DNA of 58,628 nt. Source: an uncultured delta proteobacterium. Lineage in GTDB: Bacteria; Desulfobacterota; WTBG01; CAIYCZ01; CAIRTM01. A model generated the notes under the pieces. It did no database searches and was not told where the DNA came from. It worked only from the letters and a program-made list of their open reading frames with translations. Shown here in pieces: positions 3,992 through 55,634 of the stretch (positions are counted from its first letter, which is position 1; each line of letters starts with the position of its first letter). The position numbers and the translations under genes are program-made. The stretch lies in the NCBI GenBank assembly GCA_903881505.1, contig CAIRTM010000120.1, positions 1 through 58,628 of the forward strand. Reading direction: 5' to 3'.

Positions 3992-5476
3992 GTGTCTATT
4001 ATGGATCGAAACCCTACGAAAGATTTTATTTTCATATTTATTTTTTTCTTTATAACCTACGCGTATTTTTTCCAGGGCGGCGGCTGGAATCAGAACTGCC
4101 GGGTCAGCCTTATGCGCGCTATGCTTCATGAACAGACCTTTGTAATAGATTCATTTTTGGAGCCTTCAACAGCGCATGATATCGCATTTGACAATACCGG
4201 GGACTGGTCCTATTACGACGGTCATTATTATATCAATAAATCCCCGGGGCTTTCAATGCTTGGATTGATCCCGTTTGCCGTCGCGCATTATCTGACCGGG
4301 ACCTTGTTTCATTTGGACAGTGAACTGCAAGTGCTTTTCAGTACGTATGCCAGCACGGTTTTTACGGTGGGTATATGCGGCGCCCTGTTATGTGTGGCGT
4401 TATTCTATATGATCAGCGTGGTATTACGCCTGCCCCGTCCAGCGGCACTGATGCTGACATTTTTTTTCGGCCTGGGCACCCTTGTTTTTTCATACGCTAC
4501 CACGTTGTACAGCCATGTCCCGGCCGCTTTTTTTTCGTTCGTATCATTCCTGCTGGCTATGCATGCCGGACGCGGCGGAACGCGGCACGTGAAAAAAGCC
4601 GCTTTGCTGTCGGGCTTGTGCGCATCGCTCGCGGTGTTCATAGAGCCTTCGACTGTTTTGATGCTGGGCTTTGTCGCTGTCTTTCTACTGAGTCGCGGCA
4701 GTGGAAGAAAATACCTGCCCCTGTTTCTTATAGGCTGCGTTCCGTGCGGTCTTTTGCAGTGCCTGTATAATGCCGTATGCTTTGGAGGACCCTTTGAGTC
4801 CAGCTATGCATACGCCAATGATGCCGTAATGGTCAGGATCAACGGCAGGCTGTTCGGTGTGCCCAGGTTTATGACAATGATCGAGATGCTGTTCCTGCCC
4901 TACCGTGGCCTTTTCGTGACCTCTCCGGTAATGCTGATGGCGTTACCCGGGGCCGTGCTTTTTTTGAAAGAAAAGAAATTCAGGGCGGAAGCCCTTTTCT
5001 TTATCATGGTTTCGCTGGGGTTTTTTGTGTATATGGCCGGGTTTCATGCATGGCATGGTGGGTTCACCGTGGGGCCGCGGTATTTGCTGCCCGCCTTTCC
5101 ATTCATGTTCATGCTCTGCGTCTATGCGCTGCGCGCTTTCCCGAAATCCTTCGCTGCCCTTGGTGTGGCCTCGGTTTTTATCAATGTTTGTATTACTGCC
5201 GTTGGGAATGAAATTCCGTTTACCGAGAAAAATCCATTGATCAATGTTGTTTTGCGTCAAATCCTCCAGGGCAATGTCTCGATCAATCCAACTCCCGTGT
5301 CGCATTTCGACCGCTATTTTTGCATATATGAATTTTTAAATATAGAAGCATGGCCGCAAAATTTTAATTCTTTCAACCTGGGCGAGTTTTTCTGCCCGCA
5401 CAGTCTTATGAGCCTTCTTCCCCTGTTTGCCGTATGGGCTGTGCTTGCGCTGCCGTGGAAACGCTGTGCAGTGTAG
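3992..5476 (+). CDS. Polytopic membrane protein, GT-C glycosyltransferase-like
   Basis: A 494-residue protein with about ten hydrophobic segments, so an inner-membrane protein. After the first membrane segment comes a long loop ending in YYDGHYYINKSPGLSML. The C-terminal half has a GPRYLLPAFPF segment at a membrane boundary. Both patterns recur in bacterial PMT/GT39-like (GT-C fold) membrane glycosyltransferases, which use polyprenyl-phosphate sugars. No catalytic residue can be assigned with certainty, so substrate and activity are unknown. The start is GTG at 3992 or ATG at 4001; neither has a strong Shine-Dalgarno sequence. It shares architecture with the next gene and faces a GT2/radical-SAM operon. 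The DNA is richer in A+T and T-runs than the flanking genes, which suggests transfer. Confidence 0.65.
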   Translation: MSIMDRNPTKDFIFIFIFFFITYAYFFQGGGWNQNCRVSLMRAMLHEQTFVIDSFLEPSTAHDIAFDNTGDWSYYDGHYYINKSPGLSMLGLIPFAVAHYLTGTLFHLDSELQVLFSTYASTVFTVGICGALLCVALFYMISVVLRLPRPAALMLTFFFGLGTLVFSYATTLYSHVPAAFFSFVSFLLAMHAGRGGTRHVKKAALLSGLCASLAVFIEPSTVLMLGFVAVFLLSRGSGRKYLPLFLIGCVPCGLLQCLYNAVCFGGPFESSYAYANDAVMVRINGRLFGVPRFMTMIEMLFLPYRGLFVTSPVMLMALPGAVLFLKEKKFRAEALFFIMVSLGFFVYMAGFHAWHGGFTVGPRYLLPAFPFMFMLCVYALRAFPKSFAALGVASVFINVCITAVGNEIPFTEKNPLINVVLRQILQGNVSINPTPVSHFDRYFCIYEFLNIEAWPQNFNSFNLGEFFCPHSLMSLLPLFAVWAVLALPWKRCAV

Positions 5477-5765
5477 CGCTCCATGGCCCATGTGCAGTGC
5501 GGATAGTGCGCTGCCAGCATCCATAGCCCGTGAGGCGAGGGGATTAATAATCAACGGTAACCCCCTGCTGTGCCGGAGGCTGAGGACGCAACCATCGTTT
5601 GATATAAATCGCTGGCCCGTTATTCAACGTGCCGGGATTCGTGCCGACTGTGCGCGCGTGACGGGGCTTATCCCCGATGCACCATCTGCATCACTGGCGC
5701 ATAGAGTGTGTAAGCGGTAGCGGGCGCGGCCGTTGCCGGGGTCCGGCTGCCCGGCGGCATCAACC
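5477..5765. other. Intergenic stretch without a recognisable gene
   Basis: No credible reading frame, RNA gene or terminator is seen here. The following 30 bp hold the promoter of the next gene. Confidence 0.5.
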
Positions 5766-5794
5766 TTGACACAAAAACAGCGCTGTTTTATAGT
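5766..5794 (+). promoter_or_regulatory. Sigma70 promoter with a 16-bp palindromic operator in the spacer
   Basis: A consensus -35 TTGACA (5766-5771) and -10 TATAGT (5789-5794) are 17 bp apart, about 46 bp before the gene at 5840. The spacer holds a perfect 16-bp palindrome, AAAACAGC/GCTGTTTT (5774-5789), a likely binding site for a dimeric regulator that would occlude RNA polymerase. The 12-mer CTGTTTTATAGT (5783-5794) is repeated exactly in the promoter of the opposing operon at 11849-11877. Confidence 0.7.
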
Positions 5795-5839
5795 TACACG
5801 ACGTACGACAATCCTGCACATCAGCTCGATAATCCGCGT

Positions 5840-7504
5840 ATGAATTTCTTGAAGGACGCAAGCAAAACATATTGTCTTGTCTTTCTGGCAATCTTTGCCG
5901 TGTTTGCCGGGATCGCATGGCAACCGCTGCCCTGGTTTGAATGGAGCGACGGATGTGAGCACGCAGCAACTGTCAGAGAGCTCACCTGTTCCATGACAAG
6001 CCCTAAAAATCCTTTTCTTGACCTTCCCGGGGATACTTCACCCCGATTTGTTCCGTCGATTATTATTATGGCGTTCCTCCAAAGGATGTTTTCTCTGGAT
6101 GTTTTTGTCGTCCTGGGAATCATGTCCGCAATCTGCTTTGTTTTTCTGGGTTGGGGGGTCTACCTTTTTTCAAAAGAATTTTTCCGGGATGACCGCCAGG
6201 GGCTCTATACCCTGATTTGTATTTTGTTTTTATGGGGGCGCGGATGGGATGGTGCCAATGGCTTCATGTTCAGCTCCCTTGTTTTTAACGCATACTATCC
6301 ATCGGTGGTCTCTTTTATAGGGATTTTTTTTGGCCTCACCATTCTTTTGAAGCATATACGCAGGCAGGACTGGAAAAGTTTTATCGGTTTTGTCGCATTG
6401 AGCTGCCTCATAGCACTCAATCATCCCGTGACCGGTGCATTCTTTTTTATGCTGGCCGCGCTGCTGATTGCAACCGAGGGATACCAATCGAAAAAAAACT
6501 TCTACATGTTCGCAGCAGCGCTGGTTGCCGCCTTTTTCACGAGCGTGCTGTGGCCATACCATGATTTCATTAAAAGTGCTTTTTTTATTCTCAAGGGGCA
6601 GGGTAACCAGTTTTGGGAATACAACCAGGCCCATTATTGGCTTTATTCACAGCAACTATCCCGGGCGGGCCCCGCTTTTTTAGGGCTTATCCCCCTGGCA
6701 TACTTTGCGGTAAAAAACCGCCACCGCTTCCTGGTTGCCGGATTCACGGCTTTTTTTATCTTGTATGCCGCCGGATATATCTTTCATATTATTCTGCTCG
6801 AGCGGTGTATTTTTTACTGCATGTTGTTTCTCCAGCTGGCATTCTCGCGACTGCTGAAAAATGTTATCGAGCCCGCAGAAACGCCTGTACATTTAACATT
6901 ATGGAAAGGCATTAGAATTGTTTTTGTCACGGGTCTTTGCGCCGGTTTTTTCATCCAGTTGTACATGACAGGCAAAGTGTATCTGCCCCAGTGGGTCGCC
7001 TTTACGCCGCAGTTTCGTTTGAAGTCGTATGAGCATCCGCTTAAAAAATACATCGACCTCAAACCGTATCTCGGCAGAGGTGATATCGTGCTCGCGGACA
7101 TTTTCACGTCGTGGGTGCTGCCGTGCACTACCGACGTCAAAGTCGTACCGCTGTTGCATAATATTCCGTGTTTTTTTGAAAATATTGAACGTGTGCATGA
7201 CACGATGCAATTTTTTATATCGCCCGGTGACCGGGACGGCATTTTGAAAAAATACAGGGTTACGCATGTTCTGATCAACAAAAAGAAAATCCCCGACGAG
7301 AAAACGCCTTCCGACATCCCGTATCGTTTCATTCCTCGGCCCGAAGAGGGATTGCTTTCCTCGTTGGCCGGAATGGGCACGGTTGTGCTGGACGACGAGA
7401 ATTTCCTGCTTGTTGAGGTGGAGGGTGCGCCTCGGCCGCAGCAGCCCGCAGATAAAACATTGTACGGGAAAACGCCCCGGCCTTCGGTGCCCCTGGAACG
7501 GTGA
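5840..7504 (+). CDS. Polytopic membrane protein, GT-C glycosyltransferase-like, with soluble C-terminal domain
   Basis: A 554-residue protein with about ten to eleven hydrophobic segments in the first 390 residues, then about 150 hydrophilic residues probably outside the membrane. This two-part layout is common in GT-C transferases such as oligosaccharyl- and arabinosyltransferase-like proteins. After the first helix comes a loop beginning with W-S-D-G-C-E-H, an acidic/His position where GT-C enzymes keep their catalytic Asp. That assignment is inference. The start is the ATG following the promoter at 5766-5794; no clear Shine-Dalgarno sequence is present. It is probably a functional partner of the preceding gene and of the GT2/radical-SAM operon that converges on it (105 bp between stops). 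Base composition is A+T-rich relative to the rest of the window. Confidence 0.6.
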   Translation: MNFLKDASKTYCLVFLAIFAVFAGIAWQPLPWFEWSDGCEHAATVRELTCSMTSPKNPFLDLPGDTSPRFVPSIIIMAFLQRMFSLDVFVVLGIMSAICFVFLGWGVYLFSKEFFRDDRQGLYTLICILFLWGRGWDGANGFMFSSLVFNAYYPSVVSFIGIFFGLTILLKHIRRQDWKSFIGFVALSCLIALNHPVTGAFFFMLAALLIATEGYQSKKNFYMFAAALVAAFFTSVLWPYHDFIKSAFFILKGQGNQFWEYNQAHYWLYSQQLSRAGPAFLGLIPLAYFAVKNRHRFLVAGFTAFFILYAAGYIFHIILLERCIFYCMLFLQLAFSRLLKNVIEPAETPVHLTLWKGIRIVFVTGLCAGFFIQLYMTGKVYLPQWVAFTPQFRLKSYEHPLKKYIDLKPYLGRGDIVLADIFTSWVLPCTTDVKVVPLLHNIPCFFENIERVHDTMQFFISPGDRDGILKKYRVTHVLINKKKIPDEKTPSDIPYRFIPRPEEGLLSSLAGMGTVVLDDENFLLVEVEGAPRPQQPADKTLYGKTPRPSVPLER

Positions 7505-10267: not shown

Positions 10268-10290
10268 TATGGATTCCCTTGTTGAAATCG

Positions 10291-11679
10291 TTACTGTTGT
10301 TTAAGAAACAGGCTGATGATGGCCCGCCGGTACGTTATGATGAACTTGCATAGATCCAGAAACCTGAAATTTTTCAGATAAAAATTGAGAAGCCCCCTGC
10401 GCTGCCATTTTTCAAGTGTTTTAATCGGCAGCCCTTCCAGTTCCAGCGCCTTGCCGCCGTATTTGTCGTATTTTGACCAGTCCCTGCTCAGCAGGCGGTA
10501 TCCGCCTTCACCATGCTGCGCCATGTCATATATCTTTGTCCCCGGATATGGCGTCATGACTCCTATCGCCACCGTGTTAGGGTTGAGCCGTGCGGCAAGA
10601 TTTATTGTGTCCTTAATTGTTGCAAGCGTTTCATGCGGATGCCCAAGTATGAAATTTGCCTCGACGGCAATGCCTGCGCTTTTGATGATCCGGACCGCAT
10701 TTTCGGCCTGCTCAACGGTTATGCGTTTATTGATGTGCCTGAGAATTTCATCGTTGCCCGATTCGATGCCTATTTCCAGTGAAAAACACCCGGCTTCCCG
10801 TGCTTTGCTGATAAGTTTTTCGTTCACAAGGTTTACGCGGGTCAGGCCGCGCCACCGTATGCGGTTTGGAATGTTGCGCTGTATCATCAGGTTAAGGGTG
10901 TCGAAGGTAAGCTGATCATTAAACAGCAGAATTTCATCGAGAAAGTATATGGTATGTGCGCCGTACTGCTCAATGGCATATTCCATTTCACCCACAACGC
11001 TCTCCGCGGAACGCCGGCGCACCTGCCTGCCCAGTACCTGCATGCAAAACGCGCAGCTGTACGGGCAGCCCCTGCTTGATATCATGACATAGTAATCATG
11101 TTTACCGGTAAGCCGCTGGTTCTCGGCATAGTAGTGATGAAAAGCAGGGTAGGGTAGGGTTTCCAGCTCGGCATCGGTTAATCTGTCGCGGGCCGGATTC
11201 ACGATCACATCATGAGAGTCCCGATATACCAGACCGTTTATTCCACGGAGTTTGTCGCTATTCCTGCTCTGGACGGCCTGTGCAAGAGCAAGCATGGTCT
11301 TTTCGCCCTCACCGTAAATGCCGTAGGTGAAGCTGGGAAATTCCACGAGTGTTTCCTGGGGGAGTGCTGTGATATGGCAGCCGCCGATAACTGCCGGTAC
11401 GTCAGGCAGCCGCGCCTTTAAAAGTGCGGCAATGGTATGGGCCATACAGATTTCGTGGGTCATTGATGACAGGCCGATAATATCAGGTTCGTATGCCACG
11501 ACGAACTCAACCGTTTGGCGGTCGGTCCATCCATTGTAGTTGGCATCGAAGATTTTGACCTGTATCCCGTTTGACTCAAGATATGAAGCGATATAGCTTA
11601 TACCCAGGGACGGTTTGGCGGTGTTCCAATACGGATTGACTTCCGGCGGTCTTATGAGCGCAACTTTTATGGCATCCAT
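10291..11679 (-). CDS. B12-binding-domain radical SAM protein (second copy in operon)
   Basis: A 462-residue protein with the same layout as the downstream radical-SAM protein but clearly diverged. The N-terminal domain (1-165) has VALIRPPE, then VIGGCHITALP, the loop that in relatives contacts cobalamin. The radical-SAM domain carries SSRGCPYSCAFC with cluster cysteines C205, C209 and C212, then FSLEIGIESG and NFILGHPHET. Function is probably SAM/B12-dependent chemistry on a lipid or glycan intermediate, but this is inferred only from family and neighbours. It is first in a minus-strand operon with the other radical-SAM gene and the GT2 gene, with a good promoter about 170 bp upstream. Confidence 0.84.
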   Translation of the reverse strand: MDAIKVALIRPPEVNPYWNTAKPSLGISYIASYLESNGIQVKIFDANYNGWTDRQTVEFVVAYEPDIIGLSSMTHEICMAHTIAALLKARLPDVPAVIGGCHITALPQETLVEFPSFTYGIYGEGEKTMLALAQAVQSRNSDKLRGINGLVYRDSHDVIVNPARDRLTDAELETLPYPAFHHYYAENQRLTGKHDYYVMISSRGCPYSCAFCMQVLGRQVRRRSAESVVGEMEYAIEQYGAHTIYFLDEILLFNDQLTFDTLNLMIQRNIPNRIRWRGLTRVNLVNEKLISKAREAGCFSLEIGIESGNDEILRHINKRITVEQAENAVRIIKSAGIAVEANFILGHPHETLATIKDTINLAARLNPNTVAIGVMTPYPGTKIYDMAQHGEGGYRLLSRDWSKYDKYGGKALELEGLPIKTLEKWQRRGLLNFYLKNFRFLDLCKFIITYRRAIISLFLKQQ

Positions 11680-12734: not shown

Positions 12735-12839
12735 GGCGGGTACAATTTTAAAACATCCGGATGCTGCGTTGCATCTTCAGGTGGAGCAGCCTGCGGAAAC
12801 GTGTACCGTTTGCGGGGTGCACAGTACACCGCGCGTCTG

Positions 12840-13904
12840 TTATAGCTCCCGGTCAAGAAAATCTTCGGCGATCCGCACCAGCTCGACCCAGCGGCGCATG
12901 GGATAGGCATGCCGTTCGGTCTGTACGCTGATGTTTTTCCACAGGCAGCCTGCCAGCCAGCGCTTGCAGTCGTCCTTTTTGCCCAGCAGGCCGAACAGCT
13001 CATCGCGCAGCTTTGTGATGCCGGCGCGGTCATCGGGGAGTTCTTCGTCCAGCCAGTAGCTGGCAAGCACGCTCAGTATGTCGCGGGTGATCTGGCGGCG
13101 CCCCGTGATCAGTTCATCTTTGGACGGCAGCGTGCCTCTCCAGCGCAGGCACCCGATGCTGCTGACCAGGATGTCAACCCGGCGGGTGAATTTGAAGTGG
13201 CAGGCCGGCTCGCTTGATCCGCCCACGTCGCACAGAAAGTCACGCGCAGCCGGACCCATCTCGCGCCTGATGTCGGCCTCAAGGCCGTGCATGCGCGCCT
13301 GCCAGCCGGACGGGAGCGGATGCACGGTAAAGGGCGCAAGGTCTGTTTCGGGATCGCGGGCGTTGTTGCCCCAGAACGAGCAGTTCATCACGCGGCTTGC
13401 CAGTCCCCAGTAGGTGCGCTCGGCCAGTGTGCGCTTGAGCCCGTCCTTCGCTCCGAGAAAGGCGTATACTTTGGCGATTGTGCCCTGGTCCGCGCCGTTG
13501 AAAAAATGAGCGTCGTCCGGGGCCTTGTCTCCGCACCAGCCCTGCAGCGCCCGGGCGTAGTCGATGAATTCCTTCCGGCGCGCCGGGCAGACCTGGTAGT
13601 GCAGCCGCAGCTGGGTGTGCGCGCATCCGCCGATAATTTCACAGATGCGCCGCACGTTGCGCGGGTAGTCATAGCGCCAGATGCAGCAGAAATCGGCTGC
13701 AACGCGCCGCTCAAGCTGTTCATCGGTCAACTCGCCCAGGGACGCCTGCATGCGGTTGATTTCATCAAGCATGTTGTCGTGGCCGAACCCGGCGCGGATA
13801 TTGTGGTCATAATATGCGGAACCCCGCAGCAGGGGCAGGGCCCTTTTCAGGGGTATGCCGCATGTCTGCACGCAGGCATGCGGGCTGAGCAGGCTGTGTT
13901 CCAT
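12840..13904 (-). CDS. Conserved-looking protein of unknown function
   Basis: A 354-residue soluble protein I do not recognise. It has no signal peptide or membrane segment, is rich in Trp, Arg and Cys, and looks mostly helical. The N-terminus has CVQTCGIPLKRA; CCIWRYDYPRN lies near residue 73 and NCSFWGNNARDPETD lies mid-protein. The start is well supported by AAGGAG about 6 bp before the ATG. It is divergent from the AsmA-like gene, with about 100 bp between them for back-to-back promoters, and upstream of the DUF6941-like gene. Coding is supported by its length, its Shine-Dalgarno sequence and the lack of a better frame. Confidence 0.7.
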   Translation of the reverse strand: MEHSLLSPHACVQTCGIPLKRALPLLRGSAYYDHNIRAGFGHDNMLDEINRMQASLGELTDEQLERRVAADFCCIWRYDYPRNVRRICEIIGGCAHTQLRLHYQVCPARRKEFIDYARALQGWCGDKAPDDAHFFNGADQGTIAKVYAFLGAKDGLKRTLAERTYWGLASRVMNCSFWGNNARDPETDLAPFTVHPLPSGWQARMHGLEADIRREMGPAARDFLCDVGGSSEPACHFKFTRRVDILVSSIGCLRWRGTLPSKDELITGRRQITRDILSVLASYWLDEELPDDRAGITKLRDELFGLLGKKDDCKRWLAGCLWKNISVQTERHAYPMRRWVELVRIAEDFLDREL

Positions 13905-14004
13905 GGCAACTCCTTTCCGTCTGCCGCCTGAATTCTTTCAAAGTCAAATGTTCTGTGGTATACCGGTACGCAGTGCACACAAATTAGACAGGTTTTGGGC
14001 GGAA

Positions 14005-17000
14005 ATGACAAGAAAATTATTATCGCGCTCGCTGCGGGTCTTCTCCGTTGTGCTGATTATGGCCGCTGGTGCAGCGCTCGTGCTGTCGGTCTTCCTGCTG
14101 GACCTGAATCAGTATGCCCGGCGCGCCCTTCAGCATCTCGAGGACGAAACCGGCTACCGCCTGACGTTCAGCGATGTCAGCCTGCATCTCGCGCGCGGGG
14201 CGGGCCTGCGCGTCGATGATTTTGTCCTTACGCACGCCGCCACGGGCAGGGAGTTCCTGCGCGGAGAACATCTCTATATACATATCAGACTGAGTCCTCT
14301 GGTCAGGAAAAAAATAACAGTACGGCAGCTTTTAATTGAAAAGCCGCAGATGCGCGTGTACCGCGAACCTGATGGAACCTGGCATTCGTTTCTTTCACCG
14401 CTGGCGGCGCAGGACGCCGACGATGCCGGCAGCCTGTTCGGGGATTATCGCCTGGAGGTGAAAACCATCGCCCTTGAAGACGGCGTGCTGGAGGTCGAAG
14501 ATGGACTGCACGGCGCCGGCGTGCGCCTTGATGATTGTACGATCAGGCTGCACCGCGCGGAGGCCGGCATGGACCATATGGAGCTCACTGCGCAGCATCA
14601 TGCCGACGGCAGCCGGGGAACCATCAGGTGTACGGCGGACTTTCACCGCTCGCTTCTGCGGGGCCGGGGCGCGGATGCGGGCCTGCCGACGCTGCTGAGC
14701 GCCGAGCTGGTGTTCAGCAACCTGCCGGTGCGCGAATGCATGGCCTATCTGCCGGAGCGTTTCCCGGTGCCGCTTGACGGCGGCCTGCTCGATGCAGCGC
14801 TTGCGATAGAGCTCAGGCAGGGCGGGAAACTGTCGGCCGGCGGCGAATCGGTTCTGAAAGGCGCACGGCTGATCGCGGGCGGCCTTGGACCGGTGGGCCT
14901 GCCTGATGCCGCGCTGTCGTTCAAGGCTGCGTCTCAGGATACCACAATCAATTGCAGTGAGTTCTCGCTGAGGCTCGATCCTGATCTGCACCTGGAGGGC
15001 AGCGCGAGCATCGATTGCTCCGGCGGGGAACCGGCCCTTGCCGTGCGGATCGGGTCGGGGGTTTTGGACGTGCATGCCATTGCGCAGCGCCTTGCCGCAG
15101 CCGCCGATGCCGGAAAGCGTTTCGCGCTGCTGACGCAGGCGTGCGGGCGCCTGGCAACAGCACATATCGCGGTCCATGATCTCAGCCTCGGCGCGCCTCT
15201 CGGCTCCTCGTTCGGTTTGGACTCGATCAGCCTGCAGGCGCATCTTGGCCTTGATGCGTCCGGGGATGCGGCGGGTATGCTGTACGAACTCTCCACACCG
15301 GACGGGAGCCCGATAGCGCTTGGGATTGCAGACGGCCGCCTGCGGTCCCGCGGGCGTCTTAAAAGCGCCTCAGGAGACAGCCACGCCTTTGACCTTGATG
15401 CGGCTGTGCCTCACGGAAAACCCCGGCTGACATGCACACTCGATTCCCGCCTGGGCCTTGCGAGTCTTAACGCTTTGCTGCATGGCCTCGCGAAGGACAC
15501 AGCCGCCGCGCCCGAGCTGCTCGGGGGCAGTGTCGTCCTGCGCACAGCGCTTCGTTTTGACAGCAGTCTGCATGTCGTTTCCGACATCGACGCAACCGAC
15601 GCAGCCTACGGCGTTGCCGGCATTGCGGGCAAGTACCGGGGCGTGCCCAACACGATCCGGCTGGAGTATGACAGCACACAAAAAAAACGGCAGGAGCTGC
15701 CGTTTGAGTTCCGGCTGGGAGACAGCCTGAGCGTAACCGGCCGTTTGTGTGCAGCCGGCAAAACCGCGGTGGCCGGTCAATTCGCTGCGAAGGATTTCGA
15801 CCTGGCCGTGCTCGACTGGGCGTTCCTGCCAGGGGGGCTTGGGCTTGCCGGTTCCGTTTCCGGCACGGGTGAGTTCGCATTTCCGGAACACGCGCCGGGC
15901 GCGCGGCCCGTGGCCGGCACGTTTGAGCTTGACGGCATAGCGCTCACGGAGAGCTCCGCGGAGCAGCCGCTGCTGCAGGCTTCTGCGGTTGTCGATGTTC
16001 CGCGGGCGCCGCAGCAAATAAGGGTGTCGCAGGGGTGCGTGTCTGCCGGTGACACCCGAGGTGCTTTTTCGGGAACGCTCTCAAGCGCCGTGCCGCTGGC
16101 CGGCACGTTTGCGGTCCCGATGGAGAAGTATGATATCGGCGACTTCGTCAATATCATGCTCAAAATCGTGCGAAGTTTTAAACGGGAACAGGTTGAAAAG
16201 GAGCCGCAGCCCAAGGATCCCGACAGCATGTTCGCCCGGATGGATATCACGGTTGACCTGAAATCAGCGCAGACACGCTATCTGAACTGGGACTTCGGGC
16301 CCGGGACCTGTGTTTTCTCCATTAAAAACAGGCGCCTGCTCTGGGATGCCATTGACATCGAGGGAGGCGGCGGCAGCCTGAACGGCTCGGTCCTCTATGA
16401 CCTCTCCAATACGGATCATTACCGGCTTGAGTTTTTTATCGGGCGCTCGGACGTCGATGTCACCTGGGCCATCCCCGGCCTGAAGACAAAGCAGACCATC
16501 ACCGGCAGGCTTAACCTGAAAAGCCGCTTCGCGAGCAACTTCACATCCGCCAGGGAGCTGCTCGGCAATATGGAGGGCACATTTGATTTTGTGGTGAGCA
16601 ATGGAGCGGTCAGGAAGATGGCGCTGTTGTCCAATATTCTCAATGCGCTGAACGTGACGCGGCTGCTGGCGCTCAGGATGCCCGAGTTTTCAGCAGACAC
16701 GATGCCCTTTGACACCATGACCGGCCGTTTTACGCTTAAAGATAAACAGCTTGCAACCGATGATTTCGTGCTTGCATGCCCGTCAATGGATTTTTCGGTT
16801 GCCGGTTTGTTCGACCTCGGCCGCGCGAGGCTCGACCTGCTCATCGGCGTTCAGGTGTTCAGAACGTTTGCGCGGGCGCTGGGCGCCATTCCGTATCTGG
16901 GCAAAAAAATAACGGGTAAAAATAAAACCCTTACCTTCGCATACTTCCGCGCCAAAGGGCCGTTTGAGAGCCCGCGGGTACGGCCGGTGCCCATGAAGGC

Positions 17001-49951: not shown

Positions 49952-51076
49952 ATGAAAAAAACAGTATGTGCAATTATTATCGCGGCTTTTTCGGTGTGTG
50001 TATGGCTGCAAAACGCAGGGGCTGAGGACATCAAGATCGGATCAATTTTACGGCTTTCACAGGGCGCATCGGATGGACTGCCCGCACGGCGCGGTGTTGA
50101 GATTGCCGTCAAGGAGATCAACGCCAAAGGCGGAATCGGCGGCAGGAAGGTGGAGGTCATTTTCGAGGACAGCAAGGACACTGATCAGGCTGCGGTTGCC
50201 GCATTCCAGAAGCTTGTTTCAATGGACGGGGTCAAGGTTGTCATCGGTCCCATGAAAAGCAGCGAAGTGCTTGCGGTTGCGCCGATTGCCATGCGCGAAA
50301 AGATCGTTGTCATCACTCCGAACGGAACCTCGCCCAAAATATCCGAAGCCGGTGAATACGTCTATCGCGGCTGCTCCCGCATCGACAAGCAGGCCGAGGC
50401 GCTCACCCAGTTTGCCAAAGACCCCATGAAGGCAACCGGGGTTGCAATCCTGTACAGCAATGAGCCCTACGGCAAGGGATGCAATGACCTTTTTACAAAG
50501 CAGTTCACGGCCCTGGGCATTCCGGTTGTCGCTGTCGAGAGCTTCATGGTCGGCGACAGGGACTTTTCAGCCCAGATCACCAAGCTCAAGCAGAGCACGT
50601 TTGACCTTCTGTTCATCCCGGGCTATCTGCAGGAAACCGCGCCTGCCATCGCCCAGGCGCGCAAAATGGGCATTGTTGCCGAGTCGATGGGCGTGTACGG
50701 CGACATGGCTCCCAAGTATATCGAGCTTGCCGGCAAGGCTGCTGAAGGCCACATAAACGCAAGCGAATATGACGAGGACTACGCAACCGGGAAAAACAAA
50801 AAGTTCAAAGATGCCTACTACAGCATCGTAAAGGCCGACGCCAATGAGCCCAACAACATCATGTTCGCCGCCCTGACCTACGATGCGATGGGCCTTGTGG
50901 CCGAGGCGATCGCCGCGAAGGGAAATTCGCCTGACGGCATCAGGAGCTATCTTGACAGCGTGAAGGATTTTGACGGCGTGACCGGAAAGCTCAGCTTTGA
51001 CGCCAACGGAGACGTGGTCAAGCAGGGCGTCTACATTTTCAAGGTGCAGGACGGAAAATACGTAAAGGTCAAATGA
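49952..51076 (+). CDS. livK: Branched-chain-type ABC transporter substrate-binding protein
   Basis: A 374-residue periplasmic protein. Signal peptide (1-25, ending NAGA), then EDIKIGSILRLSQGASDG and VEIAVKEINAKGGIGGRKVEVIFEDSKDTDQ, the typical start of type I (LivJ/LivK-like) binding proteins. The two-lobed fold continues to the end. Ligands of this family include branched-chain amino acids, amides, urea and aromatic acids; the PaaK-like gene in the operon hints at an aromatic or organic acid (inference). The ATG follows AGGAGG closely. First gene of livK-H-M-F-G plus the PaaK-like gene. Confidence 0.9.
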   Translation: MKKTVCAIIIAAFSVCVWLQNAGAEDIKIGSILRLSQGASDGLPARRGVEIAVKEINAKGGIGGRKVEVIFEDSKDTDQAAVAAFQKLVSMDGVKVVIGPMKSSEVLAVAPIAMREKIVVITPNGTSPKISEAGEYVYRGCSRIDKQAEALTQFAKDPMKATGVAILYSNEPYGKGCNDLFTKQFTALGIPVVAVESFMVGDRDFSAQITKLKQSTFDLLFIPGYLQETAPAIAQARKMGIVAESMGVYGDMAPKYIELAGKAAEGHINASEYDEDYATGKNKKFKDAYYSIVKADANEPNNIMFAALTYDAMGLVAEAIAAKGNSPDGIRSYLDSVKDFDGVTGKLSFDANGDVVKQGVYIFKVQDGKYVKVK

Positions 51077-51077
51077 T

Positions 51078-51935
51078 GTGTTTTTTCAGCAACTGGTAAA
51101 CGGACTTGTCTCGGGCTGCGTATACGCGCTGATCGCTCTCGGCTATACCATGATTTTCGGCATCCTGGGCATTGTTAATTTCGCCCAGGGTGAGATATAC
51201 ATGTTCGGGGCGTTCGGCGCCGTGACCGTGTATGCGGCAACAGGGAGCCTTGCCCTGGCAATCCTGGCGGGGCTGGGCGCGGCGTGCCTCGTCGGCGTAC
51301 TGCTTGAGCGCTTTGCGTTCAGGCCGCTCCGGGGCACCCATCCGCTTGTCCCGCTCATCAGCGCAATCGGCGCGTCCATACTGCTGAGCTCGCTTGCCCG
51401 GTTTTTTTTCGGGCCCGAGGACCGGCCCTTTCCGCATGAATTTTCCGCGGCAACCTACACGGTTTTTTCCGCGCACATAACCGGCATGCAGCTCACCATC
51501 ATGGGAATTTCGGCGGCTCTCATGACCGCTCTCTGGCTTTTTCTCACGATGTCCCGGCATGGCAAGGCGATACAGGCCGTGGCCATGGACAGCGATGCGG
51601 CCAGGCTCTCGGGCATTAATGTCAACAGGGCCTATGTCGCAACATTCCTCAGCGGTTCGGCCCTCAGCGGTGTTGCGGGCATGCTCATGGCGGTCTATTA
51701 TAACGCCACATCGCCGACCATGGGACTGCTGCCCGGACTCAAGGCATTCTCCGCGGCAATACTCGGAGGCGTCGGGTCGATACCCGGCGCGATTATCGGC
51801 GGCCTGGTGCTCGGCGTGGCCGAGAACCTCGGCGCCGCCTACCTGTCATCAAACTTCAAGGATGCATTCGCATTCATAGCGCTTGTGCTGGTGCTTATCA
51901 TCCGGCCGCGCGGCATCATGGGGCAGCGGAAATGA
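51078..51935 (+). CDS. livH: Liv-type ABC transporter permease LivH
   Basis: A 285-residue inner-membrane permease with about eight helices. It starts FFQQLVNGLVSGCVYALIALGYTMIFGILGIVN, the LivH hallmark, and contains the cytoplasmic coupling region DSDAARLSGINVNRA and FSAAILGGVGSIPGAIIGG. The start codon is GTG, one base after the livK stop. The next gene overlaps by 4 bp. Confidence 0.92.
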   Translation: MFFQQLVNGLVSGCVYALIALGYTMIFGILGIVNFAQGEIYMFGAFGAVTVYAATGSLALAILAGLGAACLVGVLLERFAFRPLRGTHPLVPLISAIGASILLSSLARFFFGPEDRPFPHEFSAATYTVFSAHITGMQLTIMGISAALMTALWLFLTMSRHGKAIQAVAMDSDAARLSGINVNRAYVATFLSGSALSGVAGMLMAVYYNATSPTMGLLPGLKAFSAAILGGVGSIPGAIIGGLVLGVAENLGAAYLSSNFKDAFAFIALVLVLIIRPRGIMGQRK

Positions 51936-52795
51936 GCGCCTATGTTTTTCATGTGCTGATCATGGTTTCGATCTTCGCGATCCTGTCGCTGAGCCTCAAT
52001 ATCATTGTCGGCTTTGCCGGCCTTGTGTCGCTGGGGCATGCGGCATTTTTCGGCATCGGCGCGTATGCAAGCGGCCTTATGATGATACGCGGCATGGGCT
52101 TTGTGCCTGCATTGTTTCTCGCGGGCCTGTGTACCGCGGCGCTGGGAGTCGCGCTCGCGCTTCCCGCGCTGCGGGTGAAAGACGACTATCTTGCCATTGT
52201 AACGCTTGGTTTCGGCATTATTGTCGTGATGGTCCTCATGAACCTTGAGGTGACCGGCGGCCCTGACGGACTGGTAGGCATTCCTCCTGCCGCCCTGCTT
52301 GGTACTCCGCTGTATTCAAAGCCCGGTTTTCTGGCCCTGACGCTGGGATTCCTTCTGGTTATGATCCTGAGCGTGTATGCGCTCAAGCAGTCCAGGATCG
52401 GCAGGGCATGGGCCGCCATACGCGACAATGACGTGACCGCCATGTTCATGGGGATCAATATCTATTATTACAAGATGCTCGCCTTTATCGTGAGCTCATT
52501 CTGGGCGGGACTCGCGGGCAGCCTGTATGCCCACTACACCGCCTATATCAACCCGCAGACCTTCGGCATGCACACCTCCATTCAGATACTTTCCATGGTC
52601 GTGCTCGGCGGCATCGGCAGCATTACCGGCTCGCTTCTGGGCGCCGCCCTTCTGGTGGTGCTGCCCGAAATCCTGCGCCCCCTGGCTGATTATCAGGATA
52701 TTTTTTATGGAGCCCTGCTTGTTACCATGATGGTGTTCAGGCCCCAGGGCATCATGGGCCGCGTGAAAATAACCGAGATCTTCGGAAAGAAGTAG
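51932..52795 (+). CDS. livM: Liv-type ABC transporter permease LivM
   Basis: A 287-residue inner-membrane permease with LNIIVGFAGLVSLGHAAFFGIGAYA, LRVKDDYLAIVTLGFG and MVVLGGIGSITGSLLGA, all characteristic of LivM. Shorter than E. coli LivM but normal for the family. ATGA overlap with livH indicates translational coupling. Confidence 0.92.
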   Translation: MSAYVFHVLIMVSIFAILSLSLNIIVGFAGLVSLGHAAFFGIGAYASGLMMIRGMGFVPALFLAGLCTAALGVALALPALRVKDDYLAIVTLGFGIIVVMVLMNLEVTGGPDGLVGIPPAALLGTPLYSKPGFLALTLGFLLVMILSVYALKQSRIGRAWAAIRDNDVTAMFMGINIYYYKMLAFIVSSFWAGLAGSLYAHYTAYINPQTFGMHTSIQILSMVVLGGIGSITGSLLGAALLVVLPEILRPLADYQDIFYGALLVTMMVFRPQGIMGRVKITEIFGKK

Positions 52796-52796
52796 C

Positions 52797-53525
52797 GTGC
52801 TCAGGCTCTCCAACATCCACACCTACTATGGCAATATCCACGCGGTCAAAGGCGTGAGCATACATGTTAATCCGGGTGAAATCGTTGCGCTTATCGGCGG
52901 AAACGGTGCGGGCAAAAGCACGATTTTAAGGACCATTTCGGGAATCTTAAAGCCCGCCTCGGGAACCATACACTTCGGGAGTGACGATATCACGAGCCTG
53001 GGCCCCGAGAGCATCCTGAGGACCGGCATCGGCCATGTGCCTGAAGGCCGGCGGCTTTTCAAGGGCCTCACGGTCAGGGACAACCTGATCCTCGGCGCGT
53101 ATTCCCGCAGGGACCGGGACAGGATAGACGATGACATTGATGCGATGGAGCGGCTTTTCCCCATACTTAAAAAACGAAAGGGCCAGATCGCCGGGACCCT
53201 TTCAGGAGGAGAGCAGCAGATGCTTGCCATGGCGCGGGCGATGATGGCACGGCCCGGGGTGCTGCTGCTGGATGAGCCCTCGATGGGCCTTGCCCCGATC
53301 ATCACCGCGCAGATTTACGCTCAGATCAAAGCGCTTAATCTCGGCGAGGGGCTGAGCATGCTGCTTGTCGAGCAGAATGCCCGGCTTGCGCTGAACCTTG
53401 CCCACCGGGGCTATGTTGTCGAAACCGGCCGCATTGTCATGGAGGGCACTACCGGCGAGCTGCGGGAAAGCAACGAGATACAGCGCGCCTATCTCGGCAA
53501 GGGATACCGGGAAGTGTGGGAATAG
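52797..53525 (+). CDS. livF: Liv-type ABC transporter ATPase LivF
   Basis: A 242-residue ATPase. Walker A GGNGAGKST, GHVPEGRRLFKGLTV, signature LSGGEQQMLAMARA and Walker B VLLLDEPSMGLAP are intact. It powers uptake together with LivG. The start is GTG directly after the livM stop. In most operons livG precedes livF; here the order is reversed. Confidence 0.93.
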   Translation: MLRLSNIHTYYGNIHAVKGVSIHVNPGEIVALIGGNGAGKSTILRTISGILKPASGTIHFGSDDITSLGPESILRTGIGHVPEGRRLFKGLTVRDNLILGAYSRRDRDRIDDDIDAMERLFPILKKRKGQIAGTLSGGEQQMLAMARAMMARPGVLLLDEPSMGLAPIITAQIYAQIKALNLGEGLSMLLVEQNARLALNLAHRGYVVETGRIVMEGTTGELRESNEIQRAYLGKGYREVWE

Positions 53526-53592: not shown

Positions 53593-54354
53593 ATGCTGAC
53601 AGCCGAAGGCATCACGAAAAGCTTCATGGGCATCCATGCGCTCTCGGGCGTGTCCATGCAGGTGCATGCGGGAGAGATCCTTGGCGTTATCGGGCCCAAC
53701 GGCGCGGGCAAAACAACGCTGTTTAACGTACTCACCGGACTGTACGCCCCTGATGCGGGAAACATTTTTTTTGAAGGCAGGGACATCACAAACCTGCGGC
53801 CGTACCGGAGGGTCGGGCTGGGTCTGGCGCGCACATTTCAAAATCTTGAAATATTCCGCGACATGAGCGTGCTTGAAAACGTCATGGTGGGGGGCCATGT
53901 CCGGCTTTCGTGCGGCTTCTGGCAGAGCCTGCTTGTGACACCGGGCAAAAGGGCCGAGGAGCGCCTGCTGAGAAGTCAGGCCCTTGAGCTTCTTGCGCTG
54001 CTTGGGCTTGCCGACCGGGCGTCCGCTCCCGCGGTGAGCCTGTCCTATGGCGACCAGCGCAGGATCGAGATCGCCCGCGCGCTTGCGTCACATCCCGCCA
54101 TGCTGTTTCTTGACGAGCCGGCCGCGGGCATGAACCCCAGGGAAACCGAGCTTCTTGCCGGCCTGATCGCGCAGCTCAGAAAGGATTTGCAGCTGACCGT
54201 TGTCATCATAGAGCATGACATGAACCTCATCATGAATGTCTGCGACCGCATTGTGGTCATGAGCGAGGGCAGGGTTCTTACGGCCGGCGCCCCCCATGAG
54301 ATCAGACTGGACGCGCGTGTCCTTGAAGCCTATCTCGGAGAGGAGATACTATGA
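53593..54354 (+). CDS. livG: Liv-type ABC transporter ATPase LivG
   Basis: A 253-residue ATPase with Walker A GPNGAGKTT, the LivG-specific GLARTFQNLEIFRDMSVLENVMVG, signature LSYGDQRRIEIARAL and Walker B MLFLDEPAAGMNP. The C-terminal VLEAYLGEE matches the family. It starts 67 bp after livF and overlaps the PaaK-like gene by 4 bp, so that gene is translated with the transporter. Confidence 0.93.
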   Translation: MLTAEGITKSFMGIHALSGVSMQVHAGEILGVIGPNGAGKTTLFNVLTGLYAPDAGNIFFEGRDITNLRPYRRVGLGLARTFQNLEIFRDMSVLENVMVGGHVRLSCGFWQSLLVTPGKRAEERLLRSQALELLALLGLADRASAPAVSLSYGDQRRIEIARALASHPAMLFLDEPAAGMNPRETELLAGLIAQLRKDLQLTVVIIEHDMNLIMNVCDRIVVMSEGRVLTAGAPHEIRLDARVLEAYLGEEIL

Positions 54355-55634
54355 TGTTCGAAACCCGGTATGAAACAATGTCCGCAGCCGAGCTTGCGCT
54401 CATCAGGATGGAGCGCCTGCAGTCGACGCTCAACCGCGCATACCTGAACGTCGCTCATTATCGCAGGACGCTTGACGGCGCAGGCATACTGCCCGAGGAT
54501 GTCAGGTCGCCGGCCGACCTTCAAAAGCTGCCCTTTACCACGAGGGCCGACCTTGAAAAGGGCTATCCCTATGACATGTTCGCCGTCCCGCTCAGGGAGG
54601 TCGTGCGTATCCACGCTTCCCTGGGCAAGGCCCGCAAACCCATCGTGACAGGCTACACGGCCGGCGACCTCAAGGCCTGGGCGCGGCTCATGGCCCGGTT
54701 CCTTACCGGGGCCGGCATTACGCGCGATGACGTTTTACAGATATCATTTCGCTACGGCCTGATGACCGGCGGCTTCGGATTTCACAGCGCGGCAGAGCTT
54801 ATCGGGGCGTCGGTCATTCCGGCCGACATCGGCAACACGGCCGAGCAGGCGGCCATTATGCATGACTACCTGACATCGGCCATAGCCTGTACGCCGGGAT
54901 TCGCCCTGATACTTGCAAGCAGGCTGGGGGAGCTGCGGATCAATCCAAAATCGCTCAGGCTGCGGCGGGCAATCCTCGGGGCTGAACGGCTCGGCGCCGG
55001 AGTGCGCTCGCGCGTTGAGCAGGCGCTTGGCGTCGAGGTTTTTGACAGCTACGGATCAAGCGTTGTGCTCGGGCCGGGCATTGCCGGCGAGTGCAGCGCC
55101 CATGACGGGCTGCACGTCTATGAGGACTTTTTTATACCGGAAATCATAAACCCCGCGACAGGCGAGGTGCTCGGGCCCGGAGAAAAGGGGGAACTTGTTA
55201 TTACCACGCTGATGCGCGAGGCCTATCCGCTTATCCGGTACCGGACGGGCGATATCACGATGGTGCAGGAGGGCGCGTGCCCGTGCGGCAGGACCCATGT
55301 CCGGCTCGCGGGATTTTTCGGAAGAACCGACAGCACCGTCAAGGTCAAGGGAACAAGCGTGTCGCTTGACCGGCTCCGGGAAATCCTTGCGGCAGAAGGC
55401 GTTGCCACGAGAATCCAGCTGCATCTCTGCCGCGAAGGGGCTTTTGAAAAAGCCGTCCTGCTCGTTGAAATCGGAGAGACGTTCTTTTTCGACAGGATGC
55501 GGGACCAGAAAGTATTTATCGAAAAGCTTGAAAAGAACCTGCATACGGGTACGGGCCTGCATCTTGGCGTCAAACTCGTTCCTTTTTCAGCGTTCAGGGG
55601 CGACGCGCCGGTGGTTGATGAGCGGGACGAATGA
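54351..55634 (+). CDS. PaaK-like adenylate-forming-fold protein with lost catalytic motifs
   Basis: A 427-residue protein clearly homologous to phenylacetate-CoA ligase: LQKLPFTTRADLEKGYPYDMFAVP, LGVEVFDSYGSSVVLGPGIAGEC, EDFFIPEIINPATGEVLGPGEKGELVITTL, PLIRYRTGDI and the CPCGRTH cluster. Catalytic motifs are altered. The ATP-binding SSGTTGKP is SLGKARKP (about 90-97). YGLSE at the A5 motif reads YGSSV (234-238), losing the magnesium/AMP glutamate. The C-terminal GKAxRV region has no lysine (GDAPVVDER). RYRTGD (296-301) is intact. It is probably not a working ligase and may bind or sense the transported compound (inference). Its 4-bp overlap with livG ties it to the uptake system. Confidence 0.82.
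   Translation: MMFETRYETMSAAELALIRMERLQSTLNRAYLNVAHYRRTLDGAGILPEDVRSPADLQKLPFTTRADLEKGYPYDMFAVPLREVVRIHASLGKARKPIVTGYTAGDLKAWARLMARFLTGAGITRDDVLQISFRYGLMTGGFGFHSAAELIGASVIPADIGNTAEQAAIMHDYLTSAIACTPGFALILASRLGELRINPKSLRLRRAILGAERLGAGVRSRVEQALGVEVFDSYGSSVVLGPGIAGECSAHDGLHVYEDFFIPEIINPATGEVLGPGEKGELVITTLMREAYPLIRYRTGDITMVQEGACPCGRTHVRLAGFFGRTDSTVKVKGTSVSLDRLREILAAEGVATRIQLHLCREGAFEKAVLLVEIGETFFFDRMRDQKVFIEKLEKNLHTGTGLHLGVKLVPFSAFRGDAPVVDERDE

Follow-up and report, generated by a model that had tools for sequence, protein, structure and literature searches.

In the window, the whole stretch of 58,628 nucleotides that we analysed, the gene that closes a Liv-type importer operon encodes a homologue of phenylacetate-CoA ligase (PaaK), named here PaaK'. 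It is predicted to keep the PaaK fold, has lost the side chains used for adenylation and ranks with the most heavily eroded representatives of a lineage of PaaK homologues that is widespread at this operon position. PaaK' may serve as a non-catalytic accessory subunit of the importer, a reading to which we give an even chance.

The paaK' gene occupies positions 54351-55634 of the forward strand: an open reading frame of 427 amino acids without internal stop, immediately behind livG, the final ATPase gene of the liv series. Upstream, on the same strand, lie livK for the periplasmic binding protein (49952-51076), the permease genes livH (51078-51935) and livM (51932-52795), and the ATPase genes livF (52797-53525) and livG (53593-54354). 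The stop codon of livG and the start codon of paaK' share the four bases ATGA (54351-54354); both the intact frame and this 4-bp overlap had been described in an earlier sequence-only reading of the DNA.

The best solved relatives of PaaK' by sequence are PaaK2, PaaK1 and BT_0428, with homology to PaaK2 (2y4o) running over the whole length (E=2e-90). NCBIfam PaaK models give it 359 and 373 bits; their cut-offs, 646 and 700, are far higher. An AlphaFold2 model built from 61 sequences has a mean pLDDT of 90 and a pTM of 0.88, and superposes on PaaK chains, its best structural matches, with TM-scores of 0.88-0.93. Compared with the known ligases BcPaaK1 (2y27/2y4n) and BcPaaK2 (2y4o), PaaK' shows 39% identity in the structural alignment and a TM-score of 0.88 to 2y4o.

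The catalytic changes fall in three motifs. In the alignment to PaaK2, the A3 motif or P-loop, (S/T)SG(T/S)TGxP in active ligases, turns from ASSGTTGKP into ASLGKARKP (residues 89-97; the degenerate SLGKARKP, residues 90-97, lies at 54618-54641, forward strand). The residues Ser94, Thr96 and Thr97 of PaaK1, which hydrogen-bond the ATP phosphates (PMC8388817), are here Leu91, Lys93 and Ala94. The A5 motif YGLSEV becomes YGSSVV (55050-55067, forward), that is, Leu236Ser and Glu238Val, the latter at the position of the invariant Mg2+-associated Glu, which 49 of 49 intact PaaKs have. The A10 motif, RSEGKAQRVIDKR in the intact paralogue of the same genome, reads SAFRGDAPVVDER in PaaK' (55587-55625, forward), and the A10 region changes from SEGKAQRVIDKR to AFRGDAPVVDER. 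The invariant lysine of A10, whose position we define as the residue six before a D-x-R anchor, is Lys422 in PaaK1, where it is described as essential (PMC9493321), and Lys429 in PaaK2. No lysine stands among the last 19 residues of PaaK' (409-427), so it is not merely displaced; by eye, no second P-loop-like motif occurs across the window protein either.

Other parts of the active site persist: RYRTGD of A7 (55236-55253, forward) with the ribose-binding Asp301, the GR of A8 with Arg325, Gly280, Tyr234, and the residues C248, H255, C310 and C312, Cys/His residues found in many other PaaKs. Five residues are invariant across 374 class I adenylate-forming enzymes, the A5 Glu and the A10 Lys among them (PMC6122825); PaaK' lacks these two and keeps Gly280, Asp301 and Arg325. 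From the loss of two residues invariant in the superfamily and of the side chains of the P-loop, we strongly infer that ATP-dependent adenylation is no longer possible. The sequence-only reading had this right in its particulars, namely SSGTTGKP replaced by SLGKARKP, the glutamate of YGLSE by valine, a changed C-terminal lysine region, and RYRTGD and the fold signature retained; its term pseudo-ligase suits a protein with such motifs and such a predicted fold.

Scans returned five orthologues of PaaK': L145 (75% identity), L039 (73%), L040 (71%), L041 (60%) and L042 (59%). Together with the window protein they span two families and form a single branch in a quick tree search (SH-aLRT 100). All six genes lie directly downstream of livG; the 4-bp overlap recurs in five (the window, L039, L041, L042 and L145), and a 13-bp gap separates the two genes in L040. 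Each orthologue has an altered P-loop and no in-register A10 lysine, and the replacement of Glu238 by Val or Leu is common to all six members. P-loop and lysine erosion vary inside the clade, since the serine equivalent to PaaK1 Ser94 is kept in all five orthologues and a lysine stands one residue before the A10 position in L040 and L145 (FKG) or one residue after it in L041 (VGKG). Residues invariant in the clade and specific to it include Ser236, Arg134, Lys331 and Arg341. The distribution is patchy: within the family of G048, the clade is present in four of 24 genomes and absent from 20. In L041 (8320-9297) and L042 (4320-5297), paaK' is followed by a gene which, from its sequence, we take to be nitronate-monooxygenase-like; it is absent there in the window.

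The clade gene is under purifying selection, at a rate like that of the liv genes. Between L041 and L042, dN/dS is 0.063 for paaK' and 0.05-0.095 for the liv genes (the remaining pairs are close to saturation at silent sites), and between the window and L039 or L145 the identity is 0.73-0.75 for paaK' and 0.68-0.78 for livK to livG. The sequence-only reading had held the gene to be under selection and had proposed to look for a clade sharing its changes beside liv genes; the six members are such a clade, and the substitution rates agree with selection.

Divergence is unevenly spread along the protein. The mean identity between clade members and intact PaaKs is 0.40-0.49 in three N-domain segments and 0.29 in the C-domain, against 0.49-0.61 and 0.54, respectively, among intact PaaKs. 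The C-terminal catalytic domain is thus the most diverged, strongly so together with the hinge/A8 region, and the N-domain is better kept. In the presumed acid pocket, Gly134, Phe138, Tyr146 and Gly147, conserved in intact PaaKs, are changed clade-wide. PaaK dimerises through its N-domain, and its C-domain moves during catalysis (PMC9493321). The pattern is as one would expect if catalysis had been dropped and N-domain contacts kept, a fit that falls short of proving a dimer of PaaK' with the intact PaaK.

An intact PaaK is present in all six clade genomes, and a search with the intact PaaK of contig C47 of the window genome returned relatives in each. The intact copy is ior-linked in five (G000, G008, G048, G352 and G396). 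In G400, which is 86% complete, the protein closest to this ior-linked query is a degenerate Liv-terminal PaaK (L222), and the intact PaaK (L165) falls in a different subgroup; G352 carries an additional degenerate Liv-terminal copy (L225). In the window genome, any pairing of PaaK' with the intact PaaK would be in trans, because the latter is encoded on C47, a separate contig. A further Liv operon lies on C47, and its last gene encodes another PaaK with degenerate motifs (L037, G000:C47, 7021-8322), in which TVTDTTDTPT replaces the P-loop, the A5 Glu is kept and the Lys is lost. After it come a putative porin gene (our own reading), iorA, iorB and the intact paaK. The nearest solved matches of the window LivK are branched-chain amino-acid binding proteins; those of the C47 LivK are 3sg0 and 4dqd, which we take to be complexes with aromatic oxoacids. 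The PDB relatives of these two LivK proteins do not settle the imported compound.

We define the Liv-terminal PaaK lineage by a paaK gene that immediately follows the final liv ATPase gene on the same strand and whose product groups with other such copies, away from ior-linked PaaKs. Gene maps reveal a recurrent operon, iorA-iorB-paaK-livK-H-M-G-F-paaK'; IorAB-type enzymes convert arylpyruvates to arylacetyl-CoA (PMC5109826). The ior-linked PaaKs have all motifs wherever these can be scored, in 17 of 17 cases in a first set of homologues and 21 of 21 in a second. As members of the first set were chosen for their similarity to the window protein, its proportions are not population estimates: among its 87 Liv-terminal copies, the P-loop pattern is present in 33, the A5 Glu in 77 and the A10 Lys in 32 of 83 scorable copies, with all three motifs in 23 and none in nine (the six clade members, L108, L113 and L136). 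The second set comprises PaaK homologues from the genomes of relatives, the clade members and other near matches, mostly from Desulfobacterota. Here at least one motif is lost in 30 of 37 Liv-terminal copies versus one of 64 others (Fisher p 7e-18, with shared ancestry ignored). The other seven Liv-terminal copies keep every motif, so a gene at this position need not encode an inactive enzyme. Intact copies such as L129, L147, L148 and L127 share operon position and lineage with PaaK' but, having all three adenylation motifs, are presumably active.

Most Liv-terminal copies, PaaK' among them, separate from the ior-linked PaaKs in the trees of both sets (SH-aLRT 99; quick searches, motif columns removed). 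A careful tree of the first set implies at least 10 state changes in the P-loop, at least seven at the Lys and at least four at the Glu; that of the second set implies at least four changes of the combined motif state, or about nine separate losses if there was no regain, its deep forks being weak. An independent-pairs test of position versus motif loss had only five phylogenetically independent pairs to draw on. The sequence-only reading had presented the window gene as a single odd gene: the gene is real, but it is one of a widespread lineage in which some members have all motifs.

Several Liv-terminal loci deserve a separate mention. L108 (6959-8287) and L113 (6959-8284), both from Planctomycetota, show a separate loss of the A5 Glu (YGLTAL and YGLTAI) along with losses of P-loop and Lys. 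In the Liv-terminal PaaK of L114 (6977-8341), the P-loop is interrupted by about 13 inserted residues (TSGAPGRGATTHKAASGGPKP). In L125 (G010), the ior-linked paaK (4700-5952), livM (10270-11315) and the Liv-terminal paaK (12833-14102) are each in two frames, which looks like draft-assembly frameshifts. In Desulfococcus multivorans, dmul_C22990 and dmul_C23060 are reported padJ genes with 54% and 35% identity to the reference (PMC5109826); given their nearby locus numbers, they may belong to one paaK-liv-paaK' cassette.

Four other accounts of PaaK' have to be weighed. Degenerate catalytic motifs, and P-loop sequences that differ among clade members, could belong to a decaying gene that no longer functions but whose frame is still open. 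This is contradicted by six intact frames in two families, by a dN/dS near 0.06 with a transporter-like rate, and by the clade-specific invariant residues Ser236, Arg134, Lys331 and Arg341. A sequencing or assembly error might come to mind for a window taken from a 149-contig draft genome, but the same kinds of change occur in the independent assemblies L039, L040, L041, L042 and L145. As the orthologues share the losses and evolve at a dN/dS of about 0.06, we reject both: decay is very improbable, and an error in the window practically negligible.

The two remaining accounts grant PaaK' a function of another kind. It could be an enzyme of altered chemistry, carrying out the thioester half-reaction with the adenylate made by the intact PaaK, hydrolysing acyl-CoA, or using another mode of activation. 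The adenine and ribose side is kept (A7, the A8 Arg and the A5 Tyr), and the predicted model is closest to PaaK chains in the thioester conformation (2y4o, 4r1m_A and 6he0, TM 0.88-0.93, versus 0.75 for 2y27), although this may merely reflect a preference of the predictor. Also in favour, the A10 Lys is reported to act in the adenylation half-reaction and to face the solvent in the thioester conformation (PMC6122825). The C-domain, however, is part of that conformation and is the most diverged region of the protein; we regard altered chemistry as unlikely, if a serious contender. A ligand sensor, finally, which the sequence-only reading had proposed alongside a ligand carrier, would use the retained pocket to bind the imported acid, its CoA ester, AMP or acyl-AMP and would act on LivG and LivF without the intact PaaK, for example by trans-inhibition. 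In many operons the gene immediately follows that of the final Liv ATPase; this placement, the 4-bp overlaps in five of six clade members and the retention of ribose-binding Asp301, with Arg325, Gly280 and Tyr234, would suit such a role. The clade-wide changes of the pocket residues Gly134, Phe138, Tyr146 and Gly147 speak against it, as PaaK' may bind a different ligand or none, and we find a sensor of this kind distinctly doubtful.

Our preferred reading, about evenly balanced between right and wrong, is that PaaK' is an adenylation-deficient, PaaK-fold accessory subunit of the Liv-type importer and a non-catalytic partner that links active PaaK to it. A non-catalytic helper in uptake is suggested by the relatives in the same position, which have often lost the same residues. 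The ancestor would have been an active ligase, encoded last in iorA-iorB-paaK-livKHMGF-paaK', that turned the incoming aromatic acid into its CoA ester and so trapped it. Once catalysis was lost, the N-domain surfaces of PaaK' would have been kept, and through this domain it would pair with the intact PaaK and hold it at the importer. In a variant, PaaK' would adjust uptake according to the bound product; by analogy with known non-catalytic paralogues, we prefer the partner of intact PaaK. Against the preferred reading, PaaK' may still bind AMP, CoA or acid, or even carry out the second half-reaction. More tentatively, and with somewhat less than an even chance, the Liv-terminal PaaK-fold lineage of Desulfobacterota, Spirochaetota and Planctomycetota would consist of non-catalytic ABC importer subunits that repeatedly lost adenylation residues and kept the fold.

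Several known systems offer partial parallels. Within the same metabolic field, PaaA and PaaC of phenylacetyl-CoA epoxidase are structural paralogues, of which one pairs with the catalytic other (PMC4498308); they are unrelated di-iron oxygenases with a proven interaction, whereas for PaaK' pairing is proposed. The prozyme of trypanosome AdoMetDC is a dead paralogue in a functional complex with an active partner (PMC5201418); being a eukaryotic decarboxylase, it is an analogy of mechanism only.

In vectorial acylation, acyl-CoA synthetases such as FadD and Faa1 are linked to uptake. This link between synthetase and uptake (PMC4853782) resembles the one proposed for PaaK', but FadD and Faa1 are active ligases and act with a transporter other than a Liv ABC importer. 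A literature search, with most subscription journals outside its coverage, found no paper that describes a PaaK pseudoenzyme or an operon uniting liv genes with paaK. In a recent survey, 2,161 of 12,240 PaaK homologues were retained after motif scanning (PMC13186573).

Annotation by similarity would call the Liv-terminal genes phenylacetate-CoA ligase. Should the lineage prove catalytically inactive, that label would lead astray any model of how anaerobes metabolise aromatic compounds. A ligase-derived subunit of an ABC importer would, if true, be a new coupling of uptake to CoA activation; the lineage, if its members indeed serve importers in this way, would represent a novel type of accessory protein that descends from a CoA ligase.
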